A DNA stretch of 64,000 nt from Cantharellus purpuraceus (lineage: Eukaryota; Basidiomycota; Agaricomycetes; Cantharellales; Hydnaceae). A program made the position numbers and the translations under genes. Shown piece by piece: positions 9,772 through 62,079 of this stretch. Each line of letters begins with the position of its first letter. Positions within the stretch are counted from its first letter, which is position 1. The notes beneath the pieces were generated by a model. The model saw only the letters and a program-made list of their open reading frames with translations, was not told where the DNA came from and did not search any database. Where the stretch lies: NCBI GenBank assembly GCA_025174535.1, contig JALBUN010000023.1, positions 2,728,001-2,792,000 of the forward strand. The letters are read 5' to 3'.

Positions 9772-10089
9772 CCGGGGAGGTCATACGTAGCTTACATCAT
9801 CATTCTCTTGTGTTTGTTCGCCTGTCAAAAGTTGTTTGTTTCCAATCTCGAGATCGTGGCTGAAATGTTATTTTTTCGTCTTCCGACAGTACGCGTCTCT
9901 TGTCGTCGTTCGTCGTCGTCGCTGTCAGTGATGACGCGCTTCAGTGAGCAAAATGGGCGAGCGCGCGACCCGGAATACGGGGTTACGTGTCTGATTTCAT
10001 TCGGATACTCCGCTTCGCTCACCCTTATTTTCCCACCCACCTTGAGGCGAAATGTAAAGGATGACTAGTGTTTGCCCATTCAATTCACC

Positions 10090-10996
10090 ATGTCCTCTGC
10101 CAGCGAGTGCAACGACCTCTATTTCTTTGGTGAGGGCCAGGTGCAGAACAACCCCCGTCAGGTGTCCATCATGGGCTACGAAGGCGACCGCCCTATATTT
10201 ATACAATTTATCACCATCGCCACGCAGACATCCACCCAGTCCAGAGTGAGTACGACGTGTCTTTTCACACACACACCCCCTCTTTTGCGAGTGGTGGTAT
10301 GTACGTATATATGAGTGCGCGACCCTTTTTTCCCCTGGCAGGTCTACCGCGATCAGAGAGAGGCTGCTGTCATGGACTGGACGACAGGTGCGAGGTTTTG
10401 AGGCAAACACACACACACGTCCTTTTTTTTTGCCTGCCATTTCTTTTGGCACACGTTACCCACCTCCCATCTTCTCAGTAGATACGCACTTGGGCCTACT
10501 CACTGTCGGCGAGCGACAACTCCACATGGGCCAGCTTGTCAGACCCCGTGCCCCAAAGTAGTGTATCAATCCCAAACCCTTGCGTGGCATGTGCAAGGGC
10601 CGTTACTGATTTCTGTTTTATCTCATCAAGTTCCCGCCTGTTTCTGTCCCCCGTAGACGGACTTCCATTTGAGTGGCGAAGAACAGAGTCGCAAGGTTAC
10701 GAGGTGGCTTTTTTTTGGCTGTTTCTCCCCCTCTCCTCGCTCGCACTCATCTGCCACCCTTACAAGCTTTTCACCCCAGGCGATCGAAGGATAGCCACCT
10801 ATTCGCGCATATCATACCAGACAAATGTCAGATCTTACATTCCCGGACGTCGACTAAAACTGACAACGTGCCCTTGTAGTGGGGGATCTGCCACGGCCTC
10901 TTTCGATACACTTTCAAAAACCAGGATGCCCTACTACTGGAGGCTTTACTAGCACTAGCCCTAAACCGCTGGGTCGACATGAATGGTACAATGTGA
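10090..10996 (+). CDS. DUF6593-like protein, unknown function
   Basis: Spliced model, 176 aa, six exons: 10090-10245, 10342-10387, 10479-10557, 10631-10703, 10767-10826, 10880-10996. It reads MSSASECNDLYFFGEGQVQN, then VYRDQREAAVMDWTT, HLGLLTVGERQLHMG, DGLPFEWRRTESQGYE, PGDRRIATYSR, and ends with a helix ALLALALNRWVDMNG. This order (small beta protein with FxWR, a basic -IA-Y strand, then a final helix) resembles the basidiomycete DUF6593 family, whose function is unknown. The last intron is chosen because splicing it produces the helical end; without it the frame stops at 10952. The exon 3 acceptor could also be three bases later. It is convergent with the large minus-strand gene (217 bp between stops). 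Confidence 0.6.
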
Positions 10997-37045: not shown

Positions 37046-37651
37046 TGTTATGCACTAGGTCCAATGGGAGGAGTTGAGGTTGGATTTGGGTCAGAGTTGG
37101 AGTGGGTTGTGGTGATCAGAGCAGACTTGGCTTCAGCTTATGTGCTGTGCCCTCACTAATACTGGTGTCCAAGATTTCAGAGATGGAGTAGGTCTTTAAC
37201 TAGTTCTGGACTGGACTTAGGCCCAAGATGTGGTTCAATATTCAAACTGGGGAATGAAGTCCCCAGTAGTGTGATTCAAATACATATTTTGGAATCTAAT
37301 AATAATTACTCCAGTGAGGGATCTCCAAGGCTGATGGGGATGGGTGTCCAGGTTCCTATGGTGATGCTGATGCATCAATGGAACTGGAGACAGATGGGTG
37401 GAAACAGTGATGATTGGACAGACTAATGGTGATGTGACAATTTCCAAATGGAGTACAAATCTCATACACATGGGGATCTGGGTGGATTGGATGGAGATCT
37501 AGGTGTTAATGAATATAGTCTCCATTAAGGCTGAGCCCTTGAGGCCTCAGGTCCATAGACTGAATAGCTGAGACAGTTGGGTGTAGTCAGAGTTTATACT
37601 GGGGGTCTGGGGAACATATAAAAGGAGGGGTGTGTTGAGGTCTTATCCTCA
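37046..37651 (+). mobile_element. LTR/promoter-like block, copy A
   Basis: It begins TGTTATGCACTAGG directly inside the chromodomain remnant and is homologous along its length to 38593-39396. It contains the module ACTTGGCTTCAGCTTATGTG, also seen (diverged) in the LTRs at 54.9 and 60.8 kb. A TATA box (TATAAAAGG) at 37617-37625 lies 35 bp before the ORF of copy A. It may be an LTR carrying its own promoter; the 3' boundary is not resolved. Confidence 0.6.
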
Positions 37652-38592
37652 ATGATGTTGAATCCCTTTGCAAACATGAGTGTGGCCAAACTTGAGCAGT
37701 TGCTCCTGGCCCAATGGAAAGAGGAGGAGGAGGAATGGAAGTGGAAGGAGGAGGAATGGAAGTGGAAGGAGGAGGAATGGAAGTGGAAGGAGGAGGAATG
37801 GAAGTGGAAGGAGGAGGAATGGAAGTGGAAGGAGGAGGAATGGAAGTGGAAGGAGGAGGAATGGAAGTGGAAGGAGGAGGAATGGAAGTGGAAGGAGGAG
37901 GAATGGAAGTGGAAGGAGGAGGAATGGAAGTGGAAGGAGGAGGAATGGAAGTGGAAGGAGGAGGAATGGAAGTGGAAGGAGGAGGAATGGAAGTGGAAGG
38001 AGGAGGAATGGAAGTGGAAGGAGGAGGAATGGAAGTGGAAGGAGGAGGAATGGAAGTGGAAGGAGGAGGAATGGAAGTGGAAGGAGGAGGAATGGAAGTG
38101 GAAGGAGGAGGAATGGAAGTGGAAGGAGGAGGAATGGAAGTGGAAGGAGGAGGAATGGAAGTGGAAGGAGGAGGAATGGAAGTGGAAGGAGGAGGAGGTG
38201 GAGGTGGAGTGAGCCTGCAAGGTCAAGGAGCTGGAGGCTGTGATGGAGGCCATGAAGTTGAAGGAGGAGCAGAGGTGACTAGTTACCCAGGGAGTCTGAG
38301 CATGCCAATGTGGATGCAGACCCCTGAGGTTGCCATTATTTCAATTACACAGACGGAGCCATCCTGTCCAACACCTGCTCCACCAGCATGCTCACTGGTG
38401 CATTCGCAGCCATGGCCATTGTTCATGGTGGGTGTGGCCGAAGAGGATGATGTGGCAGAGGCAGAGAAGGAAGAGATGAAGATGGATCCAGATGTAGATC
38501 AGGATGTGAATGTGGATCCAGAGGTGGAGGCAGAGCCTGAAGCAGATGCAGAGCCTGACCCACTCTTGAATCACTATGAGGAAATGGCCTGG
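37652..38592 (+). pseudogene. Coiled-coil/Cys-cluster ORF family, copy A (truncated)
   Basis: Starts MMLNPFANMSVAKLEQLLLA and runs straight into a 22-copy EEEWKWK heptad repeat encoded by a 21-bp minisatellite. After a frame change it resumes the family sequence: VKELEAVMEAMKL-like coil, MWMQTPEVAIISITQTEPSC, an acidic segment of Asp/Val/Glu repeats (near 38,480-38,560), and DPLLNHYEEMAW. At that point (38593) copy B's LTR-like block interrupts it, and the rest is missing. No function is known to me. The family recurs at 39.4-41.1, 54.3-54.9 and 62.1-63.8 kb. Confidence 0.65.
37732..38200 (+). repeat. 21-bp coding minisatellite, 22 copies
   Basis: Unit GAGGAGGAATGGAAGTGGAAG, nearly perfect over about 460 bp. 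Because the unit is a multiple of three and lacks stops, all three plus frames stay open, coding (EEEWKWK)n, (GGMEVEG)n and (RRNGSGR)n. One minus frame gives (SSSFHFH)n. Only the EEEWKWK frame joins to the family N-terminus. Confidence 0.95.
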
Positions 38593-39396
38593 TGTTATGC
38601 ACTAGGTCCGATTGGGGGTTGGAGGTTGGGTTGGAGGTTGGGTTGGAGGTTGGGTTGGAGGTTGGGTTGGAGGTTGGGTTGGAGGTTGGGTTGGAGGTTG
38701 GGTTGGAGGTTGGGTTGGAGGTTGGGTTGGAGGTTGGGTTGGAGGTTGGGTTGGAGGTTGGGTTGGAGGTTGGGTTGGAGGTTGGGTTGGAGTCAGAGCA
38801 GAATTGGGTGCATTGTGGGGGTTGGAATGGACTTGGCTTCAGCTTATGTGCTGTGCCCTCACTAATACCGGTGTCCAGGGTTTCGGAGACAGAGTATGAC
38901 TTAGATAATTATAATTGGACTTAGGAACTAGGCGTGATTTGATATTCAAACTGAAGTCCCCAGTTGGGCAACTTAAATACATATTTGAAATCTAATAATA
39001 ATTACTCTGGTGATGGGTCTCTGAGGCCGACGGCCTTACATGAGTATGTCTGAGTCCAACGGGGACGGATGTCTGGGTTCCTATGGTGATGCTGATGCAT
39101 CAATTGGAACCGGAGATGGATGAGTGAGATCATCAGTGACAATCAGACAGATAATTGGAGATGTGATGGTTTCCAAATGGAGTATAAATTTCATGTATGT
39201 GGGGATCTGAGTGGATTGGATGGGGATCTGGGCATTAATGAATATAGTCATAACAGTATCTCTCCATTTAAGGCCAAGCCCCTGAGGCCTCATGTCCATG
39301 GATTGAATAGGTGAGACAGTTGGGTGCAGTTGGAGTTATACTGGGGGTCTGGAGACATATGAAAGGAGGGGCATGATTGAGGTCTTATCCTCAATG
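38593..39396 (+). mobile_element. LTR/promoter-like block, copy B
   Basis: Second copy of the TGTTATGCACTAGG block, inserted after EEMAW of copy A's ORF. It differs from copy A chiefly by a 12-bp VNTR near its 5' end. The TATA position has mutated (ACATATGAAAGG). The block is followed at once by copy B of the ORF. The missing remainder of copy A is not found downstream of copy B, so a simple insertion does not explain the arrangement. Confidence 0.6.
38617..38791 (+). repeat. 12-bp minisatellite, 14 copies
   Basis: Unit GGTTGGAGGTTG, essentially perfect, 14 full copies plus a partial one. At the same place, copy A has only about one unit (GAGGTTGGATTTGGG), so the array expanded after the copies separated. 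Confidence 0.95.
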
Positions 39397-41096
39397 ATGT
39401 CAAACCCTTTGGCAAACATGAGTGTGGCTGAGCTCGAGCAGTTGCTCCTGGCCTGACGGAAGGAAGAAGAAGAGGAGCAGAGACGGAAGGAGGAGGAGGA
39501 GGCAGAATGGAGACGGAAGGAGGAGGAGGAGGCAGAATGGAGACGGAAGGAGGAGGAGGAGGCAGAATGGAGACGGAAGGAGGAGGAGGAGGCAGAATGG
39601 AGACGGAAGGAGGAGGAGGAGGCAGAACAGAGATGGAAGGAGGAGGAGGAGGAGTGGAGATGGAAGGAGGAGGCAGAGGTGGAATGGAGACGGAAGGAAG
39701 AAGAAGCGAAGGCTGAGCGAGCATGCAGGGTCAAGGAGCTTGTGGCCGTGATGGAGGCTGTGAGGCTGAAGGAAGTGGAAGAGCAGGCGCATGAGCTAGA
39801 AGCCACCATGGAGGTAGAGGAGGAGGTGACCAGGCAGGGGCTATTAGTCACCCGGGGAGTCCAAGTGTGCCAATACAGGTGGAAACCCCCAAGGTTGCCA
39901 TTGTCTTGATTACACAGATGGAGTCGACCTGTCCGACAACTGTCCCTCTGGTAGGCTCGCTGTTGCATCTGCAGCCATGGCTGTTATTTGTGGTGGGTGC
40001 AGCTGAAGAAGATGATGCGGCAGAGGTGGAGAGGGCAGAAGTGGAGGCGGATCCTGATGCCAACATGGAGCTCAATGCAAATGCAGAGCCCAAGGTGGGT
40101 GTGGATGTTGGGACAGATATGGAGCCGGATCCAACCTTGAATTGCTATGAGGAGATGGCTTGGGTAGCTGGAGTTGAAGCTCACAAAAGGGCGGAGCTAT
40201 ATGCTGCTACCACCAAGAAAAATCTTGAGGCCACAGTCCTTTCATTGAAGGTGCACCCGAGTGCTGATACAGAGAAGTGGGAGAGGGTCATATGGTGCAA
40301 GGTGGAGAATTGTGTATTGGTGACTCATAAGAGGGAGCTGCATGTTGCTAGGTCAGCAATCCAGCTTCACAAGCGCGAGATGGAGAAGGCGGTGGCAGAA
40401 CAGCAGGACAAGGAGGAGGAGAGAGAGCACTTGGAGGCCACATCGAGAAGGAGCGGACCACCCAAGGCTCTGGCTCCAACGGAGCCATTCAGCAGGCTCA
40501 GTGTGATTTGCAACTTGTGTCATGACACGGGCATGGAGTGTGTATGGCCCACTGGCCCAACTTGCCACCTTTGGTCCTGCGATTGTTGTTGGGGTTGGAA
40601 AGGAGGGTGTAGGATCGATGGCAAGTTCGATCCCCAAAGTTGGAGTGTCAAGCCCCAAGTAGTGGTACAAGGAGGGGTGGAGAAGGGACCAGAAGGTCAT
40701 CCGACCAAAAAGCAGTGGATGGAGATGAGTGCTGTGGCAGCTGGGGGTAGTGGTGTCAGATTGGAAGGAGCAATGACCGGCACAGGTACAGGGTGCATCT
40801 CTGTGCCCAACAGTACCATGGGCCAGCTTATCTGGCTGGTTAACCTGCAGTTGGAGCACCTCCAGCGGATGGAGGGGTTGTTAGTGGAGTTAGTGAAGAT
40901 GATGAAATGGAAGGAGGTTCTGGAGGGTCAGCGGACTGCTGAGTTGTGTTGGCTGCAGAAGTTCATGGCCCCCTTGGATGAGGATTTGGACATGGGGGAT
41001 GAGAAGGATTGGGTGTCAGATATGGAGAGTGATGATGAGTTGGAGATGGAGCCTGAGGTAGACAAGGGGAAGGGAAAAAGGAAACACAATGTATAA
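39397..41096 (+). pseudogene. Coiled-coil/Cys-cluster ORF family, copy B (nearly complete)
   Basis: Starts MSNPLANMSVAELEQLLLA, then hits a TGA at 39454-39456. The frame continues as RKEEEE repeats (a 30-bp VNTR) and the coil ELVAVMEAVRLKEVEEQAHE. A one-base deletion near 39,833 shifts the frame; from 39867 it runs uninterrupted to 41096: IQVETPKVAIVLITQMEST, EEMAWVAGVEAHKRAELYAA, a second coil QLHKREMEKAVAEQQDKEEE, a cysteine cluster ICNLCHDTGMECVWPTGPT then CHLWSCDCCWGWKGGC, a Gly-rich stretch, and a C-terminal DMGDEKDWV acidic part ending KGKGKRKHNV. The eight cysteines look metal-binding. An AATAAA follows at about 41,207. The family is not identified; Gag-like or domesticated origin are both possible. 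Confidence 0.65.
39477..39660 (+). repeat. 30-bp coding minisatellite, about six copies
   Basis: Unit AGACGGAAGGAGGAGGAGGA plus GGCAGAATGG, coding RRKEEEEAEW. The last copies are degenerate. It occupies the same position in the protein as the 21-bp array of copy A, so the array type differs between paralogues. Confidence 0.9.
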
Positions 41097-41239
41097 CTTA
41101 AAAAATGAAAATGATTTGATTGTAATATTTCAGAGCGGAGGAAAAAATGGGGTGGAGTGAGATTCTTTTGGAGGTTGGGTAGACTTGTAATTCCTTTTGT
41201 GACTTAATAAAATGATGATGCGAAATAATAGAATTAGCT
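41097..41239 (+). other. 3' UTR-like end of copy B
   Basis: Sequence after the stop (GTAATATTTCAGA, then GACTTGTAATTCCTTTTGTGA and AATAAAATGATGATG) is matched, diverged, downstream of copy C on the minus strand (about 61,900-62,079). It is therefore part of the repeated unit. Confidence 0.6.
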
Positions 41240-41811
41240 CAGAGCAATATATTGGCATAGCCTCCTCTTTGGGGGCATCATCTTGGTCGTCCCATTCATA
41301 TGAGGTGATCTCCTCATTCCATTAATCAGCTACTTCTATAGCTGGTGTTTTTTTTCCTCTAGATGGTCCTTGGGATCATCCATTGCTTCTTCATGTTCTC
41401 CCTCTATTGGGGAGAACCCATCTACATTGTCCTCCACTATGTTTGAGGACATGTCCTTTTGGACCACAGCCAACCTTACATTGCCCTTTAGTTTGGGGCA
41501 GCTGGGTCACATGTGACCTGTCTGGCCACATTTGTAGCATACAATGTTACTGGTAATGTTGTTTGATCAATCACCACTCACATGTGCTGGTGGCTTTGAT
41601 TGATAATTACCCTTAAAGGAGTAATTGTTGGAACTGAACCCAGAGCCTTCACTATGGGGTTCTGGCCTTGGCACACTTGCTTGTCATGAGTGTGTATTGG
41701 GAGCTGTGTACACACATCCCTGGGGTGTGGGTTGACTCCCTGAATTTGTCATACCAGTAGTTCTGTTGACTACTGGTCTATGGGTTGAGGACACGTTGTT
41801 GGTTCACTTAT
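41240..41811 (-). pseudogene. Ty3/gypsy gag, zinc-knuckle part
   Basis: On the minus strand the CCHC knuckle reads CYKCGQTGHM, then a TGA, then PSCPKLKGNV (about 41,538-41,460). It is preceded by a Ser/Gln/Pro-rich linker (TTGMTNSGSQPTPQGC). This is typical of chromovirus Gag nucleocapsid. The DNA is packed with short inverted repeats, for example GGTCACATGTGACC at 41505-41518 and 8-bp arms at 41395-41417 and 41754-41776. Confidence 0.7.
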
Positions 41812-43200
41812 GGAATAGATCCTATAAGCCTGCACACAACAGTCCTGGCAAACAGATGGTGTGTAATGCAGTTGTTCAGCACGCCAAAGAACAATCAGGT
41901 TAAGGGGTAGGGGTAGCACTGAGTAACAGGAAAGTGTAATAGTGCTCTGTGGTTGGAGGAGGATGGGGAGTGAAAAGGATGGTCCAGATGGTTGATCATG
42001 CTCTGTGACTGGATGACAATGGGGAGCCCAGTTGGGAGGTACATGAAAGCTGGTTTCAGGAGATGCAACCTCTTGGTGGTGGAGGGAAATCTGATCATTG
42101 AACCAAGGTGCTTTGCCTCAGTGTAGAGATGATGGATTGTGATATAGAGCGTAGAGTGTAGACTTAGAGTGTGGACTTTGACTTTAGAGCATTGGCTGAA
42201 AACTTGTTGATTTTCCCAAAGGCAAAAACTAGCACCCTTTTATACAAATCCCCAGGGCACAACAACACAATATGAGGAGCAAATGATGCAAGAAGGTCAA
42301 GCCAGCTGATGAAGCATGTGAAGTTGAACTACTAATGGGGAAATCATGGAGAAATGAAGTGACAGATAGGGGTAATCTTTGTAAGAATAGGAGGTGATGA
42401 GTAATACAAGAACCAAAAATAGAACAGGGATGAGTAAGTCATGTATGAATGAATTAAAAGATGAAACAGGGGTGAGTCATATAAAAGAACAATAGAAACG
42501 TCTACCAATACCATCTTCCCTATGGCTCCGAAGGTAAATTGACCCTGAGTCACATGAGGACTTCAGTCAGCATCCACAACAAATACTCCTTATTGTCTTA
42601 GTGATCCATCTCCATATGGTATCCCGTTCCAAGAATATTCGGTCCCTTTGCCTGACACGATGTAACCTGAGTCAGATTGAAGTGGGAGGATAGGTCAGCA
42701 ATGGCGACTGAAATTCTACCTCATGTTCGACTCTTCTATCCATGTTATGATATAGAGGTGAAATGTCGAGAAATGTATATGGTTCAATGGAATTGTGAAA
42801 GAATATGGGATTGCCAATGGCATAAGAGAGACATGGTGGGGATCTTGGACGTTGAAAGAGTTTTGGAAGTATTTTGATATGTGGAGGTGGCTAAACATGC
42901 CTGTGGAGCTTGGCATATTTTTGATAGTCCTCTGTGTCCAGAGACCAGTGTGACGTATTATTAGAAGCGATGTTGGAGAGGGGAATAGAATGGGAAGCCA
43001 TGTGAATGATGATGAAAGGATTGGTGTGAATAGAAGGCTGATAATGATCGATGGCGATGAAACACGAGTGACAATCGATGGCTAGAATTAGAGACTGAGG
43101 TGGAGAGAGAGTTGCAGTGCTATTTAAAAGTTGATATGAAAAGATGCTGGTGGAGTTGGACTGTCAGAGTGGTTCGATATGCGTCCTCGATGCGTCCTGG
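41812..43200 (-). mobile_element. LTR-like insertion in gag, inverted copy of 49.1-52.0 kb
   Basis: This 1.4-kb block separates two halves of the gag remnant. It matches, in inverted orientation, 49,101-49,795 plus 51,229-52,023. One example is a conserved open stretch, here on the plus strand (EMYMVQWNCERIWDCQWHKR) and at 49.3-49.6 kb on the minus strand with few changes. It lacks the hairpin-dense character of the flanking gag. Exact ends are uncertain. The inner position at 42,5xx shows the uninterrupted state of the site where a solo LTR sits in the other copy. Confidence 0.6.
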
Positions 43201-43971
43201 CTTGTCACCGCCCTGTTGTAGTGTTCTACATTTCTGTAGAACCATTCCTGGGCCTTACCTTTAAGGTGAGTGCCTAAGTACAATAGTTGAAACTTTGTAC
43301 TTGATGGCCCTAGAAGATTGTTCATCTTCAGCCATCATAGCATACCTGCTACAAAGATCTCAAACTCTTCAAGGTCCATGCCTCCTGCATATTGCTCAGG
43401 GGGTGATACCTTAATGCCTGCCTTGGCAAGTACAGCTTCTCTGGGTCTGTATCTCTATTATCGACTATGGCTACTCACACCATGCAAGTAATGCCATTGA
43501 TAGGATCAATTGTATCCATTGATCCAGTATGCCTTGACCTTCTAGGGTCAATGGTGCTGATTGTTCCCTGTTATGGGGAACATCTTCTTGAGGTACCCAT
43601 TGGGTATCTTGTTGCTCATGGCAGGTGTCTCCTGAAAGGCCCACCACTTGTATGCACTGATAACTGTTCAGCACATGTTGTGACTGTTGGTTTAAATCAA
43701 CAGCCACATTGAGCTCTTACTAGGGCTGCTGCTCTCTAAACAGCTGACTGAGCTCCTGCTCTGCATGTTTAGCCTTCCATTTGAGGGCTAATCTGTGTTG
43801 ACAAGAAGCCTCAACTTCTTGTTGTTTCCATAGCTTGATCTCTTGATTGAGCCCCTTTGCCATAGATTGAGGAGTTTCCTCCTCAATCTGGATCGGGAAT
43901 CCTTGCCTTATAGGGATTACTGGGTCTCTGATTCCCTCCATTGGGGGAATCTCATTGAGAATCTGATCTTT
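43201..43971 (-). pseudogene. Ty3/gypsy gag core, hairpin-dense
   Basis: Minus-strand translation gives the capsid-type sequence MDLEEFEIFVAG, LWWLKMNNLLGPSSTKFQLL, YLGTHLKGKAQEWFYRNVEH (about 43,400-43,205), as in fungal Ty3/gypsy Gag. It is followed 5' by a coil region QEIKLWKQQEVEASCQHRLA (about 43,850-43,720). The stretch consists largely of adjacent inverted repeats, such as 43801-43822 (8-bp arms) and 43864-43889 (11-bp perfect arms). Confidence 0.65.
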
Positions 43972-44531
43972 GACGCTTGTTCGGAATCATGTCAGTATAC
44001 AATATTCTGATGTATATCTCATATACATCAGAATTTCAATGATACATAAAGCCAGGGAGTTACAATTTGGATATCTTAAAAGATTTTGGATGTGTGAAAT
44101 TTTCATAAATATTAACATATATTCTATATTTCAATAAACTTTAAAAGATGAGATATTTGGTTGAGATGAACATAATTACATAGATATAATAGGAATGTAT
44201 GTATTAATATAATTGGTATTATATAGGGTATTTAAATATACAAATACCAGGTGGGGATTAAAGATAGTTCAAATTATGTTACAAGTATTGTATAAAAAAG
44301 AATCAATGATATTTGGATGTTCCCTCAAGAGAGTTGCCACCACTAAATGAGGAAAAAACAGTTATTTTTGAGAATTATGCCAAAATATCAAAATATGTTT
44401 TAATCTAGTATATTGTGTAAAATTTGAGAATCATGTTGAAATATGAAAATAAGTTTGAATTGAAGTGCATTGTGTAAATTTGAGGAAAATAGGTTGTATA
44501 TATGTATTTGTTGTATTTCTGAACAAGCATC
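43972..44531. mobile_element. AT-rich terminal-inverted-repeat element (MITE-like or small LTR)
   Basis: About 560 bp with 15-bp imperfect terminal inverted repeats, GACGCTTGTTCGGAA at the left and TTCTGAACAAGCATC at the right. The interior is strongly AT-rich and has no coding potential. It contains a perfect 14-bp-arm palindrome at 44004-44034 (ATTCTGATGTATAT, loop CTC). It interrupts the gag remnant. The target-site duplication is unclear (possibly TTT). Because the repeats include TG...CA, a small solo LTR is an alternative. Confidence 0.55.
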
Positions 44532-45560
44532 TTTGGCAATGTGACTTGCAGTGCTCAGAGTTCTCTTAGAGTGATTTTAACATCATTCCTAGCTCTGCAA
44601 TTTGCTGCCCCATAGTAGTGGCAGCATGTCCTGCTTTGGCAGCCATCTTAGCTGCCTGAGCACTAGCTTCACTAATGCTCTTCATCTCATGTTGATTACA
44701 CATGAGTTGTTCGGTCAATCTCACAATTGACCTGTGGGTTTCATGCTGCTCCATGCTGCATGATTCCCTAGTAGAAGTATTGTTACTTCTACTTGTGCTC
44801 ATATATTGAGCATGTTCCTTTCCTTTAAAAATATTAAAGGCAGTTAATGACTGTCTCCTCCTTTCTTCTCTAATCAGAGAACCACTCAATGAGGGGTTCT
44901 TGTTTGACAGATGATCTATTGTGCGATCATCTGTGTGGTCTCATGACCACGATGACTCTCTCCTAGAGTCCTCCTTATGGGGAGTCCCTATGACTTCTCT
45001 AAGGTCTAGCTTCCCTTCATGGGAGCTTCTGCTGCTGGCTACATGCTGCTGTTCATCATTTATGATGTCCTGGGCACTGCCAGCATGACTCACTCTATTA
45101 CAAGTCATCATTATGATGACTCCTTTCTTTCTTCTATCTTTGTAGACTAACTAAGTTAGTCTACTAGTTGCTCACTTATATGAGCGGCTGGGGGGGGTTG
45201 GTATACATCTGTACACCACAACAGCTGGTTTTCTAGTATTGACTAGAAAACTTCAATAATGAGGAAGAATCAATTGATTCTTCCTTTGAAAGTTCAAAAA
45301 AGTGTAAATGGGTGTCTTAGTTCACACTGAGTATATTGGTTGTGTGATGTGCTGTACAGTGTGGTTGTTTTCTAAGGTCTATCTACTATATGTGGACCCA
45401 CACATGTACTTGAGCCCACTGCCTTACATAATAACTATACATATGCACCCTATGGGCACATATATCTACCAAGAAGACAGCATTCCTTAATGGAATGCTG
45501 CATACATTAATTACAATTATATACTATAGTAAGTAAGTACCTTGGGTACTTACAGGACAT
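44532..45560 (-). pseudogene. Gag N-terminal/coil part, hairpin mosaic
   Basis: A minus frame of 107 codons (44889-44566) reads SLIREERRRQSLTAFNIFKG, SRSNNTSTRESCSMEQHETH and QLMCNQHEMKSISEASAQAA, which resembles the helical N-terminal region of fungal Gag proteins. The DNA from 44,560 to 45,555 is an almost unbroken series of inverted repeats. Clear examples are 44771-44792, 44908-44933, 45142-45164, 45228-45251, 45263-45284, 45478-45500 and 45533-45553. Confidence 0.55.
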
Positions 45561-45778
45561 CATCTCTGGACTGAAGACATCACTCTGATTCCATTACAGC
45601 TCTTTGATGGATCCTCTAACTCTATTATTAAATCCACAATCGACTTGCCACTCCATTTTCCTATGGGAGAAACCCACTCTATTACTTTTTATGTAACTCC
45701 ATTGGATGTTAGTTGCTTGGCAGTTCTGGGACACAACTGGCTCACCCGCTACAATCTGTTGATTGACTGGGTATTGGG
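45561..45778 (+). pseudogene. Ty3/gypsy aspartic protease fragment
   Basis: Plus-strand translation gives IPLQLFDGSSNSIIKSTIDL, HFPMGETHSITFYVTPLD, CLAVLGHNWLTRYNLLIDW. This is the C-terminal half of the retropepsin of fungal gypsy elements, with the VLGHNWL motif before the linker to reverse transcriptase. The catalytic DSGA is not present, and the fragment stops after about 70 residues. Confidence 0.75.
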
Positions 45779-46270
45779 CAGTATCTTGTTCTGAACTCTG
45801 ATAGAGACTAAATCCTTGATGCCATCCAAGTTGGTAGCATCAGCTCCACTCAACTCTGTACCTCCATCTCTGCTAGTTGCTCCAAAAATTGCTTTTGTCA
45901 ACGTGGCAACCTTTGCCTGTGACTCATTCTGAGCTGACGTGGTTATAATGTGTGCATATCCAGAGGTTGGATCAGAACCACTTACAAATCTGTTGGTTTT
46001 ATTCAGAAAACCTGCAAATTCTGCTACAAAAATAGGATCACTTTCATTATAGCCTATTTTATCAGGTTGTAGACCAAGAAATACATATTTGATATGAGGA
46101 TACTTTGAAAGCTGGAACACTTCACCTTTAGCATATGAACGGTCCAGATACTGCCCAAAGGGGTACCAGTCACATGTTGTATGATTAGCTAGCCGGTGTG
46201 GATTGCTGTGAAAAGGCTTTTGGTAAAACTGTTGATTGAGATGCTGTTTCAGTAATGGATCAGTCTCCAT
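45749..46270 (-). CDS. Open frame of 173 aa, unknown; possible captured gene piece
   Basis: Runs METDPLLKQHLNQQFYQKPF, CDWYPFGQYLDRSYAKGEVF, YPHIKYVFLGLQPDKIGYNE, DPIFVAEFAGFLNKTNRFVS and GYAHIITTSAQNESQAKVAT. It has balanced composition, is not repetitive and resembles no retrotransposon domain I know. Its last residues overlap the antisense of the protease fragment, so the true end has probably been lost. An acceptor-like TACTTATAG just upstream of the Met suggests that this may be an internal exon of a larger gene. Confidence 0.35.
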   Translation of the reverse strand: METDPLLKQHLNQQFYQKPFHSNPHRLANHTTCDWYPFGQYLDRSYAKGEVFQLSKYPHIKYVFLGLQPDKIGYNESDPIFVAEFAGFLNKTNRFVSGSDPTSGYAHIITTSAQNESQAKVATLTKAIFGATSRDGGTELSGADATNLDGIKDLVSIRVQNKILPNTQSINRL

Positions 46271-46442
46271 AGATACCTATAAGTATAAAACATACAAATA
46301 TTCAATTTTATCTGGGAAAAAAAATTTACAGTTGAATGTAGCATAGGTGTACAATAATATTATTACTATTGTCTTTCCAATACTCTTTAATACATTCTGT
46401 AGATTTAAAGCTTGATGTTGCTTCCAAAGTTTTCTCTGCATA

Positions 46443-46986
46443 AGAAATAGTTGATGCAATATCCTAATGGGATATGCAAAAGATTTCAAATTGAACAGGT
46501 CATTTAGGAGTTATTCCAGGAACAACAGAAAGTTGACACAAGCTGACACAAGCTGTTTGTTTGCAGCTTGGAAGGGATTAGAAATAGTGAATCCGATCAT
46601 AGATACTCGTACACAGTTGTAGCTAATATACAATTTGGCAATCACATGATAAAAAAGCCTTTTAGTAAGATTGAAACATATGATAAAAGAAATGATGTGG
46701 ATACTGATAATATGTGATGTCATGGGGAAAAACTTTTTATAGAGAAAGGAGTTTTTACCCATTTGACTTGAGGTTTATGACGAATGAAAATCATCATAAT
46801 ACCTCCCTTTTTGAGTAGTAGCCATCCTCGTAGAACGAAAGGATGGCTCACAAAATAAAATCGAAAATCACCTCCTCCTCATTCCTTAATCAAAAAATCC
46901 CCAAACTTTTCACAACTTTTCCTTATCATAAAACTCTCCCTTCTTACTCCAATAGATCGTAGTATTACTTGAATAAATTCTTGACA
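46443..46986 (+). repeat. AT-rich dispersed module, copy 1
   Basis: About 540 bp nearly identical, in direct orientation, to 59051-59584, which is internal to the solo LTR at 58643-60182. Both start AGAAATAGTTGATGCAATAT and end ACTTGAA-AA-TTCTTGACA. Copy 1 contains an extra short duplication (GACACAAGCTGACACAAGCTG). It is most likely a truncated LTR of the same family. Confidence 0.8.
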
Positions 46987-47044
46987 TAGTAGATCTATCT
47001 AAGTATGTAAAAAAATTTCTTCAAGACTCCTTTTTCCATACCCC

Positions 47045-47403
47045 CTAACTCTGAAATATTGGACCAACAATCCAAGGGGACACAACACACAAGTTGAAGC
47101 CAAGTCCACTCAATCTGACTCAATAGTTATTGCCCACTCTGTCTCTGGTTGAACTGGAACAGTAAAGTCCCCTCCCTTTTGACTCTAGCACCCAAACTCC
47201 AGTTACTCCCTTGAACCTCATCTTCTATCCCTTAACAGAGGCACAACACACAAGTTGAAGCCAAGCCCACTCAATCCAACTCAATAGTTATTGCATCTCT
47301 CTATCTCTGGTTGAACTGGAACAGTAAAGTCCCCTTCCATATATGTATCTCTAGCATTCAAACTCTGGTTACCTCCTTGAACTCCATTTCCAGCCACTTA
47401 ACA
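47045..47403 (-). mobile_element. LTR fragment related to the 54.9/60.8-kb LTRs
   Basis: In minus orientation it begins TGTTAAGTGGCTGG at 47403. It carries the modules GGGACTTTACTGTTCCAGTT-like, GAGTGGACTTGGCTTCAACT and TTGGACC-T-TTGGTCCAATA-like of those LTRs. Its middle part is present as two tandem copies (about 47,085-47,175 and 47,238-47,335). The 3' part with the VNTR is missing. Confidence 0.65.
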
Positions 47404-48330
47404 CTTGACTGGGATAGCAGTTGGCTTGTGGCTTGAAAGCTGGCTAGAAGCTGAGCTGAGCTGATTGTTAATGGTTTGGCTTCACTGGGTATGAGTCAGC
47501 ATGGGTTATTTACAGCTTGGTTCAGCTAAGAGCCAAAGCCAAACTGTGACAACACTCATGTATGCCTATAGCCACAGAAGTGATCGCACAAGGATTGACT
47601 AGCAGCATTGTACTTCTTGTGAATGAACCAAACTGTAGCCTGGTGGTAAGGATGTCCAAATAGCTCTGGAAAGAGGTCCTTCTGAGTTCATGCAGGCTTC
47701 AAGGTATGTCCCCTCTCCATATCCTCAAATGCATTAGCAATTTCTGACACTGTCCAATACCCTGGCCAAGCACAGTCCTTTGATGCATGTTGCAGAGGAT
47801 CCTGTGCTGATATCCTGCTCCTTGCAATGACTGCAACTGTAGGCTTGGCCTTGTTTGCCATAATGGATTCTGCCAATTGCAGAACATTGATCTCAATGCT
47901 CCCAGTAGATGCCAATGACTCTGCAACACCCCCCTTGATACTGGTTACAGTTGTGAGTGCTAAGGGATGCACAACACCCCCTCCATCATGCCATTTGTTT
48001 CCCTGTATTCCAATGACTGTGCACTGACCCCTCTGATGCTGGAAATGCCTACAACACATGGAGAGGCACCCACTTTCATTCCACTGGTCATTCTGGTCCT
48101 GATGACTGTGCATGTTTCCTGTTGTCTTCAAGTGGAATTAGATCAGGTTCTGGTGACACCGACCTTTCCAAGGAGACCTCTGTGGATATGGAGGATTGGT
48201 TGTATTGGTACTTTGTAAGTGATGCACTACTGCCATCATTCTAGATGGATTCCAATGGGGAGATGAACCTATGAGCTGCACACTTATTTCCCCATTGTCC
48301 AGCTTTGACAAACACAGTATAACAATCTCT

Positions 48331-49100: not shown

Positions 49101-52023
49101 GTGGCAGGATGCATTAAGGATGTATATCAAACCACTTTGACAGTCAAATTCCACCAGTGTCTTTTGTATCAAGCTTTTAAATAGTGCCGCAACTCCCTTT
49201 GCACCTCAGTCTCTATTTCTAGCCATTGATTGTCACTCATGTTTCATCACCATTGATCATTATCAGCCTTCTATTCACACCAATCCTTTCATCATCATTC
49301 ACATGGCTTCCAATTCTATTCCTCCCTCCAACTCTCTTCTAATTATATGTCACACTGGTCTCTGGACATGGAGGACTATCAAAAATATGCCAAGCTCCAT
49401 GGGCATGTAAAGCCACCTCCATGTGCCAAAATACTTCCAAAACTCTTTCAATGTCCAAGATCCCCACCATGTCTCTCTTATGCCATTGGTGATCCCATAT
49501 TCTTTCACGATTCCATTGAACCATATACATTTCTTGGCATTTCACCTCTATATTGTAACATGGATAGAAGAGTCGAGCATAAGGTAGAGTTTCAGTTGCC
49601 ATCACCGACCTATCCTCCCACTTCAATCTGACTCAGGTTACATTGTGTCAGGCAAAGGGACCAAATACCCTTGGAATGGGATACCATATGGAGATGGATC
49701 ACTAAGACAATAAGGAGTGTTTGTTGTGGATGCTGACTGAAGTCCTCATGTGATCAGGGTCAACTTACCTTCAGAGCCATAGGGAAGATGGTATTTGTAT
49801 GGGAACCACCTTTTCCCTATCAAATTCCATTTATGCAGCACCAATGTGCTATTCTTTGCTTTTCCATTCCTAAATATCAGCATATATTTGGTGCTTGTAC
49901 CTGGAATGGACTTATTCAAATATTCTCTATTTTTCCATATTTTTTTGGGAATATTCCATGCAGAACTCGGCCTGGAATCATTTATTTCTGCTGTGCTACA
50001 GTTGTGGACCCATAGGCACCCACAAACCTTCGCACAGCCAGCTATCCACCTTTGGACCAGGCATTCGGCCTGAATTCAAGCTCAGATGTCTCTGATCAAT
50101 AAATATTCTCTAACTTGACAACCACAGCCTCTCAGGGCACTATTTTCTGTGCAGATCATCACATGAGATGTGGCTATCCATGGCTGTCCAAACCAGTGCA
50201 GAAAACAGGGTGGACACCCTTCTTTTTGCCTGATCAGTGCCTAGTTCAGGGATCAAATCAGCTGATGGGTGATCAAATCAGGTGATTGCCTTGGAATATT
50301 CTACCCCTTTCCATAACATTCTAGCTGTTTCCTTCTATTATTAGATAGAACTTTCCAGAACCATTATTCAGCTCCTGATCAGTGTTAGTCCAGTGATCAG
50401 AACCTGTGATAGGCTTGGAATATTCTACCCCTTTCTTCCACCTTCCACAACCTTCCAGTAGCTTCCATCTATTAATATGTAGAATATTCCAGAAGCATTA
50501 GTCAGCCCCTGTAAATACAATATATAAGGAGGCCATTCTGCCTCTGAAATAAAAACATATCCATCATATTCTACCCATCTTCTGCACACCAGTGTGACTA
50601 GAGTGACATACAGTGTCATCCTCTATCTCAGTAACTGTTGATTACCAGTTCAAGGATCTTTTACAGTTGTGTAACTGTACTTGATTGCACTTGAAGTAGT
50701 GATATTCCTGCTTTGGGCGTGAGTGTAGTATCTGCCTCACGTGACTACGAATCTACAGGGTGAGATTGTCTGTCAATAGTCCTGCCATTAGTGCTCTTGT
50801 TTAAGTTACTAGTGTGTACTGCCTTTGCAGAGCATTAGAAGCTTGAACTCATGTGAAGCAGTTGCTAGACTACTTCACACATTGCTGTTACCTGCTTTGG
50901 AGTGCCACTGGTTGGACGGTTGAATTCATCCACCTACTTCCTTTAGCCTCTAAGTGCATTCCCCTCTTTTTGGAATATCTGGACCCCTAAGCATCCGTGA
51001 ACTCTAGACTCTGGAAGTCTTATTCATTTCTTGCTGCTAAGAAACGTATTACCTTTCTGCGTATAGTCTGCATTGACCAATACAAAGGATTGTAACCAAA
51101 GTACAAACGTTAAATTGTTTCTGGAGTTGTGCTGCAGCAGGGTTTGATATTCTTCTCAGCTGTTCATTCACGGAATTGTGGTGATTTAGAGTTTGCCCTA
51201 ACACCATAATTTTGCGGGTTCCAAAACAGTATTGGTGGATGTTTCTATTGTTCTTTTATATGACTCACCCCTGTTTCATCTTTTAATTCATTCATACATG
51301 ACTTACTCATCCTTGTTCTATTTTTGGTTCTTTTATTACTCATCACCTCCTATTCTTACAAAGATTACCCCTATCTGTCACTTCATTTCTCCATGATTTC
51401 CTCATTAGTAGTTCAACTTCACATGCTTCATCAGCTGGCTTGATCAGCATTTCTTGCATCATATTGCATCATTTGCTCCTCATATTGTGTTGTTGTGCCC
51501 TGGGGATTTGTATATAAAAGGGTGCTAGTTTTTGCCTTTGGATCAATCAACAAGTTTTCAGTCAATGCTCTAAAGTCAAAGACCATGCTCTAAGTCTATG
51601 CTCTATGCTCTACATCCCAATCCATCAGCTCTACACTGAGGTAAAGCACCTTGGTTCAACAATCAGATTTCCCTCCTCCACTGAGAGGTTGCATCTCCTG
51701 AAACCAGCCTTCACATACCTCCTAACCAGGCTCCCCACCATCCTCCAGTCACAGAGCACAATCAACCATCTTGCCAGAAAGCCCCAGAGCATGATCTACC
51801 ATCTTGACCATCCCTCTTGCTTCCAACCACAGAGCACTATAACTCATCTCAACAGTGCCCTTTTTATCACCCTCACCAGACACAGTGTACTATTACACTT
51901 ACCAAATACTCAGTACTACCCCTTGGCCTGATTGTTCTTTGGCATGCTGAACAACTATGTTACACACCATCTGTTTGCTAGGACCATTGCATGCAGGCTT
52001 ATAGGATCTATTCCATAAGCAAA
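49101..52023 (-). mobile_element. Inverted partner of the 41.8-43.2 kb block, split by a solo LTR
   Basis: Two segments, 49,101-49,795 and 51,229-52,023, together match 41,812-43,200 in inverted orientation. The minus frame EMYMVQWNRERIWDHQWHKR at 49.3-49.6 kb matches the plus frame of the other copy. The copies differ by scattered C/T and A/G changes. The block is split by the solo LTR at 49796-51228. It may itself be an LTR of an older element; ends are uncertain. Confidence 0.65.
49796..51228. mobile_element. Solo LTR with GTATT target duplication
   Basis: It starts TGTATGGGAACC and ends GGTTCCAAAACA, a near-perfect terminal inverted repeat with TG...CA ends. The bases directly outside are GTATT at 49791-49795 and GTATT at 51229-51233. 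The uninterrupted site exists in the homologous block near 42,515. Length is 1,433 bp with no coding region inside, so it is a solo LTR left by LTR-LTR recombination. Confidence 0.9.
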
Positions 52024-54322: not shown

Positions 54323-54918
54323 TCACAATTGTGTTTCTGTCAAGGAGGAGCACTCCCTTTTACCTTGCATTTCAGCCGGTTTGTCTGGCACATGAAGCAG
54401 GAGTGAGATTTCCCAGTCTAGGAAACAAAAGTAATAATCAGTATGATATCCTGACATCCAGTCACTATGTTCACTCACCATTGCCCACTCACACATGTCG
54501 TCATGCTTGATGCACATATTGCATATGAGGTCCAATTCAGATTCTTCATCTGGATCCTTGTCCACCCCCTTGCCTTTCATGACTACCCTCAATAATGCCC
54601 TTTTCTTCACGGCCTCCACCCTGACTTGAGCCACCTCAGTGGCCCTCTCACAAGCTGCTACCTCCCTCATGATCCTCTTCTCCTCCTCTGCCTTCTTTTT
54701 CTCTGCAGTGTCAGCCTCAGCAATCAACTTATCCAATGCAGCACATTGCTGATGAAGTTCTTTGGCAGAGGGGATATCAGATGGTGATAAGAGATAAGGA
54801 GAGAGGTAACACACATTTAATAATTTAGCCAGCCCATGTGCCAATTCAAACACATATACTGCCAATTTTCCCATGAAGCTGACTAAGATCTCATGGGCTT
54901 GATCTAGAAGGGAGATAC
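54323..54918 (-). pseudogene. Coiled-coil/Cys-cluster ORF family, diverged fragment
   Basis: The minus frame gives PSAKELHQQCAALDKLIAEA, DTAEKKKAEEEKRIMREVAA and RATEVAQVRVEAVKKRALLR, then an acidic linker and LICNMCIKHDDMCEWAM. This copies the layout coil, acid, C-x2-C-x5-C of copies B and C (ICNLCHDTGMECVWP). The second half of the cysteine cluster is degraded. It abuts the end of the LTR at 54919. Confidence 0.55.
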
Positions 54919-55656
54919 TGTTACAACCTGTAATACCAAGTCCAAACTCTGGATCTCCATCTCCTTCATCTCCACCTCCATCAACTCCACCTCCATCAAC
55001 TCCACCTCCATCAACTCCACCTCCATCAACTCCACCTCCATCAACTCCACCTCCATCAACTCCACCTCCATCAACTCCACCTCCATCAACTCCACCTCCA
55101 TCAACTCCACCTCCATCAACCCCAAACTCCATTATTGTTCTCCTTATAAGTAGTTTCTTCTTATGGGTTACAACAAATCTTCTTCTTTTATATTGCTTAG
55201 TTCAGTTTGGACTTGGGTTCAAACTCTGAACTCCTTTCCATATTGTACTCCATATCCATCTTATTGTCTTATCGTTTTAGTTTCATCATTCAATTCTCCA
55301 CATACTTATATGAACTACTCTCTGTCTATTACAGTAGTTTGTATATCAACTAAGATTTGCCCCATCAACTTCTTGGTTGCTAGCTTCTTGACAAGTACCT
55401 TCTTGACAAGTACCTTCTTGACAAGTTGAACTCTGGATCCTTGATCCAACTCCATACTCCAAACTCCAAAATATTGGACCAATGATCCAAGGGGGCGCAA
55501 CACACAAGTTGAAGCCAAGTCCACTCAATCCAACTCAATAGTTATTGTCTCATTCTGTCTCTGGTTGAACTGAAACAGTAAAGTCCCTTCCTCTTCTTCA
55601 CTAGCAGCCAAGCTCCAGTTATCTCCTTTGAACTCTGAGTTTTCCAGCCCTTAACA
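54919..55656 (-). mobile_element. LTR copy 1 (minus), 10-unit VNTR
   Basis: In minus orientation it runs from TGTTAAGGGCTGG at 55656 to a TAACA end at 54919, 738 bp, with TGTTA/TAACA terminal repeats. It is almost identical to 60778-61780 apart from VNTR number and a short segment at the 3' end. On the pol side its flank reads CCTCA (minus strand, 55661-55657). The other flank is GATAC-like and does not match. Confidence 0.85.
54972..55122 (-). repeat. 15-bp VNTR, 10 copies
   Basis: Unit GGAGTTGATGGAGGT on the minus strand, 10 copies. It is the same unit and position as the 26-copy array in LTR copy 2. The frames through it (VDGGG, MEVEL) are by-products of the repeat. Confidence 0.95.
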
Positions 55657-60777: not shown

Positions 60778-61780
60778 TGTTAAGGGCTGGAAAACTTGGG
60801 GTTCAAAGGAGATAACTGGAGCTTGGCTGCTAGTGAAGAAGAGGAAGGGACTTTACTGTTTCAGTTCAACCAGAGACAGAATGAGACAATAACTATTGAG
60901 TTGGATTGAGTGGACTTGGCTTCAACTTGTGTGTTGCGCCCCCTTGGATCATTGGTCCAATATTTTGGAGTTTGGAGTATGGAGTTGGATCAAGGATCCA
61001 GAGTTCAACTTGTCAAGAAGGTACTTGTCAAGAAGGTACTTGTCAAGAAGCTAGCAACCAAGAAGTTGATGGGGCAAATCTTAGTTGATATACAAACTAC
61101 TGTAATAGACAGAGAGTAGTTCATATAAGTATGTGGAGAATTGAATGATGAAACTAAAACGATAAGACAATAAGATGGATATGGAGTACAATATGGAAAG
61201 GAGTTCAGAGTTTGAACCCAAGTCCAAACTGAACTAAGCAATATAAAAGAAGAAGATTTGTTGTAACCCATAAGAAGAAACTACTTATAAGGAGAACAAT
61301 AATGGAGTTTGGGGTTGATGGAGGTGGAGTTGATGGAGGTGGAGTTGATGGAGGTGGAGTTGATGGAGGTGGAGTTGATGGAGGTGGAGTTGATGGAGGT
61401 GGAGTTGATGGAGGTGGAGTTGATGGAGGTGGAGTTGATGGAGGTGGAGTTGATGGAGGTGGAGTTGATGGAGGTGGAGTTGATGGAGGTGGAGTTGATG
61501 GAGGTGGAGTTGATGGAGGTGGAGTTGATGGAGGTGGAGTTGATGGAGGTGGAGTTGATGGAGGTGGAGTTGATGGAGGTGGAGTTGATGGAGGTGGAGT
61601 TGATGGAGGTGGAGTTGATGGAGGTGGAGTTGATGGAGGTGGAGTTGATGGAGGTGGAGTTGATGGAGGTGGAGTTGATGGAGGTGGAGTTGATGGAGGT
61701 GGAGATGACGAAGAATGGAGATGAAGGAGATGGAGATGAAAGAGATCTGGAGATCAGACTTGGTGTTACAGGATATAACA
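60778..61780 (+). mobile_element. LTR copy 2 (plus), 26-unit VNTR
   Basis: It begins TGTTAAGGGCTGG at 60778 and ends GGATATAACA at 61780, 1,003 bp. It is followed by CCTCA, the same five bases that precede LTR copy 1 in the opposite orientation. Two stretches of more than 180 bp translate identically in both copies, so divergence is very low. Confidence 0.88.
61311..61704 (+). repeat. 15-bp VNTR, 26 copies
   Basis: Unit GGAGTTGATGGAGGT, 26 nearly perfect copies (10 in LTR copy 1). The array accounts for 240 of the 265 bp length difference between the two LTRs. Confidence 0.95.
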
Positions 61781-61881
61781 CCTCATGGATCTCCACATCT
61801 GAACTCAATCATGCATCAGAATCCATCTCCAATTTTCACTCTGCTTACCCAGACAAACCTGGTCCTCTTACAAATCTTTAA
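61781..61881 (+). pseudogene. Chromodomain C-terminal half and pol stop
   Basis: After CCTCA the plus strand reads WISTSELNHASESISNF, then HSAYPDKPGPLTNL and TAA at 61879-61881. This is the end of a chromovirus chromodomain (W-x-x-x-x-EL, then FH-YPDKPGP). It has no upstream half on this strand. The matching front half ends at 55657 on the other strand. Confidence 0.8.
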
Positions 61882-62079
61882 GTTCTATCACTGAATCCAA
61901 TTCTATTATTCCACATCAATGTTTATTACAATTCACAAAGGAAATTACAAGTCTACCTGACCTCTGAAAAACCTCACTCCAACCTGCTTTTTCTCCTTCA
62001 AATTACAAGTTAAACTTCTGCTATTCTCAAATCCATTCTGAAATATTACAATCAAAATCATCCTTCATTTCTTGTTAAG
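61882..62079 (-). other. 3' UTR-like end of copy C
   Basis: Minus-strand sequence following copy C's stop resembles that after copy B (GTAATATTTCAGAATGGA, then GTAGACTTGTAATTTC, then an AATAAA-type signal). It is convergent with the chromodomain tail. Confidence 0.6.

Follow-up and report, generated by a model that had tools for sequence, protein, structure and literature searches.

A 64,000-nucleotide stretch of the Cantharellus purpuraceus genome (C23:2728001-2792000, hereafter the window) holds on its minus strand one copy, dead and truncated, of a Ty3/gypsy long terminal repeat (LTR) retrotransposon that is present in many copies; this one keeps the 5′ LTR and gag and is crowded with short hairpins. 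The property is not restricted to this copy or to gag, as the whole element (LTRs, gag, pol and a 3′ open reading frame, ORF) is hairpin-dense. The explanation we lean towards, with confidence only somewhat better than even, is that selection for local foldedness has turned the entire element into a string of short hairpins, in a manner akin to the genome-scale ordered RNA structure (GORS) known from viruses and probably fed in part by template switches.

Hairpin density and folding strength

By taking non-overlapping perfect arms of at least 7 bp with loops of 0-10 nt (and 100 shuffles for each element segment), we counted 22 hairpins in the 2.36 kb of the window copy, against about 1.6 in the shuffles: 4 at 41240-41800 (shuffle mean 0.35), 6 at 43200-43970 (0.54) and 12 at 44530-45560 (mean 0.75, maximum 5). 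The insertions between these segments had none (41800-43200; shuffle mean 0.78) and 3 (43970-44530; 1.08), and the neighbouring DNA had 1 (45560-48000; 1.63) and 2 (39900-41240; 0.81). The counts uphold the core of an earlier sequence-only reading, which had described a near-continuous series of inverted repeats in a Gag remnant and had set apart two insertions (41.8-43.2 and 43.97-44.53 kb), both of which are hairpin-poor repeats. All nine hairpins that it quoted (9/9) are where it placed them, with perfectly complementary arms, and it rightly excluded a tandem repeat, since the arms differ between hairpins. Its gag assignment stands save for 45303-45554, which is LTR. Its tally of roughly 30 hairpins in the last kilobase is reached only with lenient stems (28 at the family level, over 661 of 1034 columns; 41 sequences, first kilobase), the strict count being the 12 given above. 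Considering that 15 column shuffles average 9.4 lenient stems (range 5-15) and a mirror-repeat control gives 14, one third to one half of the 28 could be due to chance.

The claim that hairpins are absent from pol and LTR DNA proved mistaken: the hairpin-poor neighbours do not belong to the element, whose own LTR and pol are as dense as gag (LTR and leader together have about the density of gag). Over the window and 28 fetched loci (arms of 7 bp or more, loops up to 15 nt), family DNA contained 1168 hairpins in 92,980 nt (12.6 per kb) versus 296 in 196,026 nt outside it (1.5 per kb), although the bases compared are not independent, as loci overlap and some copies are near-identical; three 500-nt windows outside family DNA held five hairpins as well. 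The stems of the element are mostly of 7-12 bp, with loops up to about 15 nt. The excess lay in arms of at least 6 bp in two long copies and varied with loop length. The ratio of observed to shuffled counts in these copies (30 shuffles) was 1.9-2.7 without a loop, 2.9-10.4 at loops of 1-12 nt (5.1-10.4 fold within 3-12 nt), 2.4-3.0 at 13-15 nt, 0.9-1.2 at 16-30 nt, 1.4-1.7 at 31-50 nt and 1.0-1.2 at 51-150 nt. A generic long-range fold is not supported, given that the pairing excess lies near background above 15-nt loops. Strong hairpins were spaced at median gaps of 34.5 and 43.5 nt in two copies, and the structure is spread over the full length of the element rather than placed at fixed functional sites.

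Folding of both strands, a check that the sequence-only reading had proposed, gave mean z values (150-nt windows, three copies) of -3.5, -3.8 and -4.1 for the sense strand and -3.5, -3.8 and -4.2 for the antisense strand, with four control regions near zero (-0.23 to +0.46 and -0.41 to +0.02). The median pair span in the folds was 17 nt. Three copies had a minimum folding energy difference (MFED; 250-nt windows, 6 shuffles) of 36.5, 42.1 and 39.2%, whereas two controls gave 8.6 and 3.9%, and in view of these control values only the excess over them is meaningful.

Coding fit, stem divergence and competing explanations

The hairpins are fitted to the coding sequence largely through the choice of codons. 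Selected gag-pol open frames of five copies (10, 8, 6, 9 and 4 frames) contained 42 (C5), 44, 31, 46 and 29 hairpins of 7 bp or more, and synonymous-codon shuffles of the same frames 5.9 (C5), 4.9, 3.5, 5.1 and 3.1; in coding sequence, most of the hairpin signal is carried by synonymous codon choice. The register that pairs codon positions 1-1/2-3, which keeps most pairs open to adjustment at the wobble position, was the commonest in 5/5 copies, and the one that pairs first with second positions was the rarest in 5/5, the copies having hairpins in common by descent and the five results thus not being independent. Together, codon choice and register bias argue that the hairpins were fitted around a protein still under selection; the register bias and the presence of hairpins across copies rule out their origin as decay after insertion. 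In a test of protein cost, which used 11 of 91 matched proteins and had low power, residues of gag that sister proteins lack were no more frequent in stems than elsewhere (10/48 stem codons versus 48/239 others, p=1.0). The 91 sister Gag proteins are 42-73% identical, and DNA scans of viral_contigs and genome_contigs recovered no relative.

The one related family examined, at a single locus of the same genome (L057, C17:270500-275000; reverse transcriptase 48% and integrase 44% identical over the query pieces), had 2 hairpins of 7 bp or more in 4.5 kb and folded at background. Its frames held 5 hairpins of this size versus 3.8 in synonymous-codon shuffles, with a weak excess at 6 bp or more (20 versus 11.1, shuffle maximum 21). 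Loci L058-L061, considered divergent-copy candidates by protein identity, turned out to belong to the same subfamily.

Divergence was followed between the main subfamily (copies C5 and C36 among them) and diverged LTR subfamilies present in the genome (D1 and D2), over a 0.7-kb 3′ region in which the D2 copy (L083) is 77.6% and the D1 copy (L022) 78.6% identical to C5. From C5 to D2, 23/222 stem positions had changed versus 123/488 unpaired ones (p=3e-6); the corresponding figures were 21/178 and 130/528 (C36 to D2), 22/162 and 93/390 (C5 to D1), 13/118 and 114/430 (C36 to D1), and 11/173 and 135/537 (D2 to C5). Over ten directed comparisons among main, D1 and D2 the stem-to-unpaired ratio ranged from 0.26 to 0.63, with a within-main control (C5 to C36) of 16/222 versus 49/497 (p=0.32). 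Because choosing intact stems in one of the compared copies is biased, stems were also defined in a third sequence; in all eight tests between subfamilies these changed more slowly than unpaired sites (11-16% against 23-28%, p from 5e-5 to 0.024), which neither of two within-main controls showed (p 0.22 and 0.74). Among the 111 C5 pairs followed into D2, 4 were compensatory, 9 had become G-U, 4 A-C and 2 other. The C5-D2 cases and two more from C36, none of them in CpG context, add up to six distinct compensatory pairs separating main from D. That stems changed about half as often, together with the compensatory pairs, indicates that pairing itself is conserved, which purely neutral arm copying would not predict. 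Among the causes raised by the sequence-only reading, selection for structured RNA is thereby supported, as selection for a structured nucleic acid.

Individual hairpins appear, in addition, to be gained. Most stems are conserved between the subfamilies, one hairpin being found only in D1 and one only in D2. The D2 copy carries an 11-nt insertion, an inverted copy of the adjacent arm, that completes a perfect hairpin with 10-bp arms, and the D1 copy a private hairpin with 12-bp arms (each in a single copy and unpolarised). Template switching, also named as a cause in the sequence-only reading, is suggested by these two single-copy cases, and template-switch-like events probably supply some of the new hairpins.

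We reason that selection would act on the local foldedness of the single-stranded form, that is, of the genomic RNA and possibly of the first-strand cDNA too, with raw hairpin material probably coming in part from template-switch mutations. The likeliest benefit would be escape from host RNA silencing, for which RNA folded on itself should be a poor target or template; a retrotransposon in a silencing host could gain in this way, as antisense or small RNA should pair with such RNA only with difficulty. Compact packaging by Gag would be the next likeliest benefit. One-sided changes leave G-U over A-C in the LTRs (590:198) and from C5 to D2 (9:4), the LTR bias also being found within main (307:95) and other comparisons being mixed or near even. 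LTR stems diverged by 5.8-6.9% between subfamilies versus 28-31% for unpaired sites (14 of 28 main and 8-21 D sequences).

Several observations weigh against selection for folded RNA. Selection on sense-strand RNA is not clearly shown: in both copies allowing A-C pairs yields more extra stems than allowing G-U (the base composition favours A-C), contrary to the partial G-U bias of one-sided changes. Both strands fold equally. No convincing compensatory evolution was found within the main subfamily, where the variation resembles CpG decay: in the 41 sequences (first kilobase), 13/244 pairs had an alternative Watson-Crick state in at least 2 copies, CpG-like by eye. Covariation within the family, a check that the sequence-only reading had proposed, is uninformative. 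Four pairs looked compensatory in the C5-C36 control too, every one of them, like both C5-D1 cases, being of the CpG-decay type. LTR stems were slower within subfamilies too (3.7 versus 9.8% and 3.9 versus 10.0%), hence part of their between-subfamily contrast reflects ascertainment or other constraint and the LTRs are the weaker evidence. The subfamily test itself stands on two D copies and one 0.7-kb region, all from one genome. Finally, structure can also draw small-RNA responses, according to the part of a maize study drawn on here (PMC10760457).

A bolder version of the favoured explanation, which we put forward tentatively, would have the lineage recoded by selection, largely synonymously, into a hairpin chain that hides its RNA from silencing, as an independently evolved GORS exceeding, on genome average, the values for RNA viruses in the studies cited here.

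A mutational ratchet without selection on structure seems an unlikely account of the pattern. Error-prone reverse transcription or DNA repair would here copy arm onto arm, perfecting quasi-palindromes over transposition cycles within the limits of protein constraint. The ultra-local range of pairing would follow readily, as would the gag-like density of LTR and leader, the D1 and D2 hairpins, and stems that are almost purely Watson-Crick (249/260 positions of the family-level stems, 14 of them only in at least a quarter of copies; the remainder are 2 fixed G-U, 2 fixed A-C and 7 other). A single template-switch event can, moreover, make a perfect hairpin, according to the portion of the study consulted (PMC8794818). 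However, neutral arm conversion should not slow the stems and should leave many double changes, whereas stems evolve at about half the rate and only 4/111 pairs are compensatory. The stem pairs of C5, read 5′ to 3′, are more often C-G than G-C (198 versus 137) and A-T than T-A (240 versus 191), in the same direction in C23b and C12; this asymmetry is strand-independent and runs counter to the one that intrastrand template switching is proposed to leave in rRNA, in so far as that proposal is represented in the part of the source used (PMC8794818). In the 41-sequence region, eight clusters of private mutations likewise showed no obvious hairpin creation (by eye, unscored).

We give little credence to selection for packaging, by which each hairpin would be a weak binding site for the CCHC-bearing Gag and the dispersed signals would gather and compact the RNA. 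The element does encode a Ty3-like capsid and a CCHC knuckle, and its hairpins recur throughout the sequence at the gaps given above, but loop length and sequence vary (by eye) and the related family on C17 lacks such hairpins. Very little credence goes to the idea that selection acts on cDNA in its single-stranded form, or on both strands, with hairpins preventing the annealing of plus and minus strands or attack on them: equal folding of the strands, the scarcity of fixed G-U pairs and the stems added by allowing A-C (antisense G-U) speak for it, and the sense G-U bias of one-sided changes in the LTRs and from C5 to D2 speaks against it, as does the fact that no Ty3 step is known to need such hairpins. 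Chance or a composition artefact, to which the lenient stems of the column shuffles (about 9 per 1 kb) and of the mirror control (14) might point, can be set aside, as perfect-arm counts beat every shuffle in the three element segments and lie far above the means in the long copies, the hairpins recur in the 41 sequences and the D subfamilies, and both the loop test and the contrast between family and outside DNA refute it.

The copy in the window and its family

The element-derived, hairpin-rich segments of the window lie on the minus strand at 41241-41791, 43194-43956 and 44529-45554.

Features of the retrotransposon copy in the window and of the repeats inserted in it
Feature	Position	Strand	Remarks
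5′ LTR, 252 nt	45303..45554	-	TG at 45554, CA at 45303 (ends and extent by eye); hairpins 45533-45553, 45478-45500
Leader and 5′ gag	44529..45302	-	Densest hairpin run of the window; hairpins include 45263-45284, 45228-45251, 45142-45164, 44908-44933, 44771-44792
Middle gag	43194..43956	-	Homologous interval; hairpins 43864-43889, 43801-43822
3′ gag	41241..41791	-	CCHC zinc knuckle CYKCGQTGHM at about 41510-41539; copy cut off at 41241
Inserted hairpin-poor repeat	41792..43193	.	Inverted relative at 49105-49799
Inserted repeat, about 560 bp	43972..44528 (to 44531)	.	Insertion-free copies (e.g., L012, L024) have about 87 bp there

Position 45554 is a true terminus, reached by 20/20 fetched loci with flanks that differ save in two pairs. 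In these pairs (L012/L013 on C12 and C2, L020/L021 on C6 and C36) the same element and the same flank stand on different contigs, perhaps as segmental or assembly duplicates. The left end, in contrast, is a truncation, as other copies continue past 41241: of 12 matches in 11/20 loci, 11 show a common continuation and one (L019) only a few bases of it. The stretches 42503-43210 and 49105-49799 are inverted relatives of one repeat (86-93% complementary), the former breaking up the hairpin element; at that insertion the window copy is without some 350 bp that stand between the same flanks elsewhere (e.g., L012, L024). The shorter inserted repeat recurs in several other fetched loci, sometimes between parts of the hairpin element. 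A protease-like plus-strand frame that begins near 45560 is not part of the hairpin element and appears to belong to another one.

A search of the genome (40.15 Mb in 50 contigs) with 44540-45560 listed 47 matches of 78-100% identity from the best 40 of 464 candidates; as several are pieces of one locus, there are at least about 40 other copies, all such counts being lower bounds. Paired LTRs with TG..CA ends were seen in 2/8 copies examined, namely C5 (1-274 and 10682-10963, 87%) and C36 (1-270 and 7481-7750, 93%), at about 270-280 bp versus 252 bp in the window copy. The open gag frame of L012 matches PF19259 Ty3_capsid (E=9.5e-6, 25.6 bits, under the curated cutoff of 29.1), and the knuckle was read in the gag of the window copy. 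ORFs of other copies, searched singly with frames unmended, matched the Pfam domains RVP_2, RVT_1, RT_RNaseH, Integrase_H2C2, rve and SH3_Tf2-1, with RVT_1 and rve under their curated cutoffs. In C5, protease (3543), reverse transcriptase (5732), RNase H (6821) and integrase (7687) follow one another, named by similarity to the ORFs of other copies. The LTRs, the capsid, the knuckle and these pol and SH3 domains identify the element as a Ty3/gypsy LTR retrotransposon.

Between integrase and 3′ LTR, C5 has a 281-aa open frame (sense, 9733-10575; found in part at L035:1232-1956, minus), with homologous DNA in the D copies. Directly past the 5′ LTR of the window copy (45283-45302) no TGG was seen by eye, so that a tRNA primer site of the usual kind is not evident; Tf1 is known to prime itself. 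Rfam gave no match within the window at gathering thresholds. Tandem-repeat arrays occur elsewhere in the window, at 37100-39900 (21-nt and 12-nt units near 37.7-38.8 kb), 54900-55200 and 61200-61900; the repeats near 55.0 and 61.5 kb give VDGGG when one frame is translated.

Comparison with known systems

The element resembles Ty3/gypsy elements (Metaviridae) with a Tf2-1-type SH3 domain in its TG..CA LTRs, its Ty3_capsid gag with CCHC knuckle and its Ty3 order of protease, reverse transcriptase, RNase H and integrase, and differs from the related family on C17 in being dense in local hairpins throughout. No hairpin-saturated retrotransposon appeared among the entries listed in searches of open-access literature, mostly at title and abstract level. 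With the hairpins attributed to template switching (Monttinen and Loytynoja 2022, PMC8794818) it has in common perfect stems and, in one case, an insertion that repeats the adjacent arm in inverted form; it departs from them, as far as the portion consulted goes, in holding more than 10 hairpins per kb and in its reversed pair asymmetry, the published preference being for G-C over C-G and U-A over A-U. The miRNA-like structures of maize transposable elements (PMC10760457) are likewise local secondary structures in transposable elements, but in the sections of that study used here they are tied to small RNAs and methylation, the reverse of shielding (stem architecture was not compared).

The closest likeness is to the GORS of persistent positive-strand RNA viruses and coronaviruses, in which, by the parts of the two cited studies drawn on here, stem-loops follow one another through the whole coding genome and for which an MFED of 3% serves as threshold (PMC3950689), a value that the element exceeds. 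In coronaviruses, several hundred consecutive stem-loops give SARS-CoV-2 a mean MFED of 15%, the highest genome mean being 23.4% (350-nt fragments; PMC7642675); their positions are poorly conserved, the MFED rises locally above 50%, and the authors hold that selection favours folding itself rather than specific structures (PMC7642675). In transfected cells, interferon induction was weaker with structured transcripts, although an artificial sequence re-stabilised to an equal MFED was still an inducer (PMC3950689). We liken the two systems in their working and claim no membership, as the element is a retrotransposon and not a positive-strand RNA virus. Set against the excerpted virus data (genome means of 15-23.4% in 350-nt fragments), its mean MFED is about 36-42% (250-nt windows), its pairing is of short span, includes the LTRs and is equal on both strands, and its stem positions are largely conserved between subfamilies. 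Should selection for foldedness be the correct explanation, GORS would not be limited to RNA viruses, and a mobile element would have developed a stronger form of such a trait; what GORS is for would become testable in silencing-competent versus silencing-deficient laboratory fungi, and the many copies would form a natural record of how perfect hairpins in coding sequence are kept and gained.

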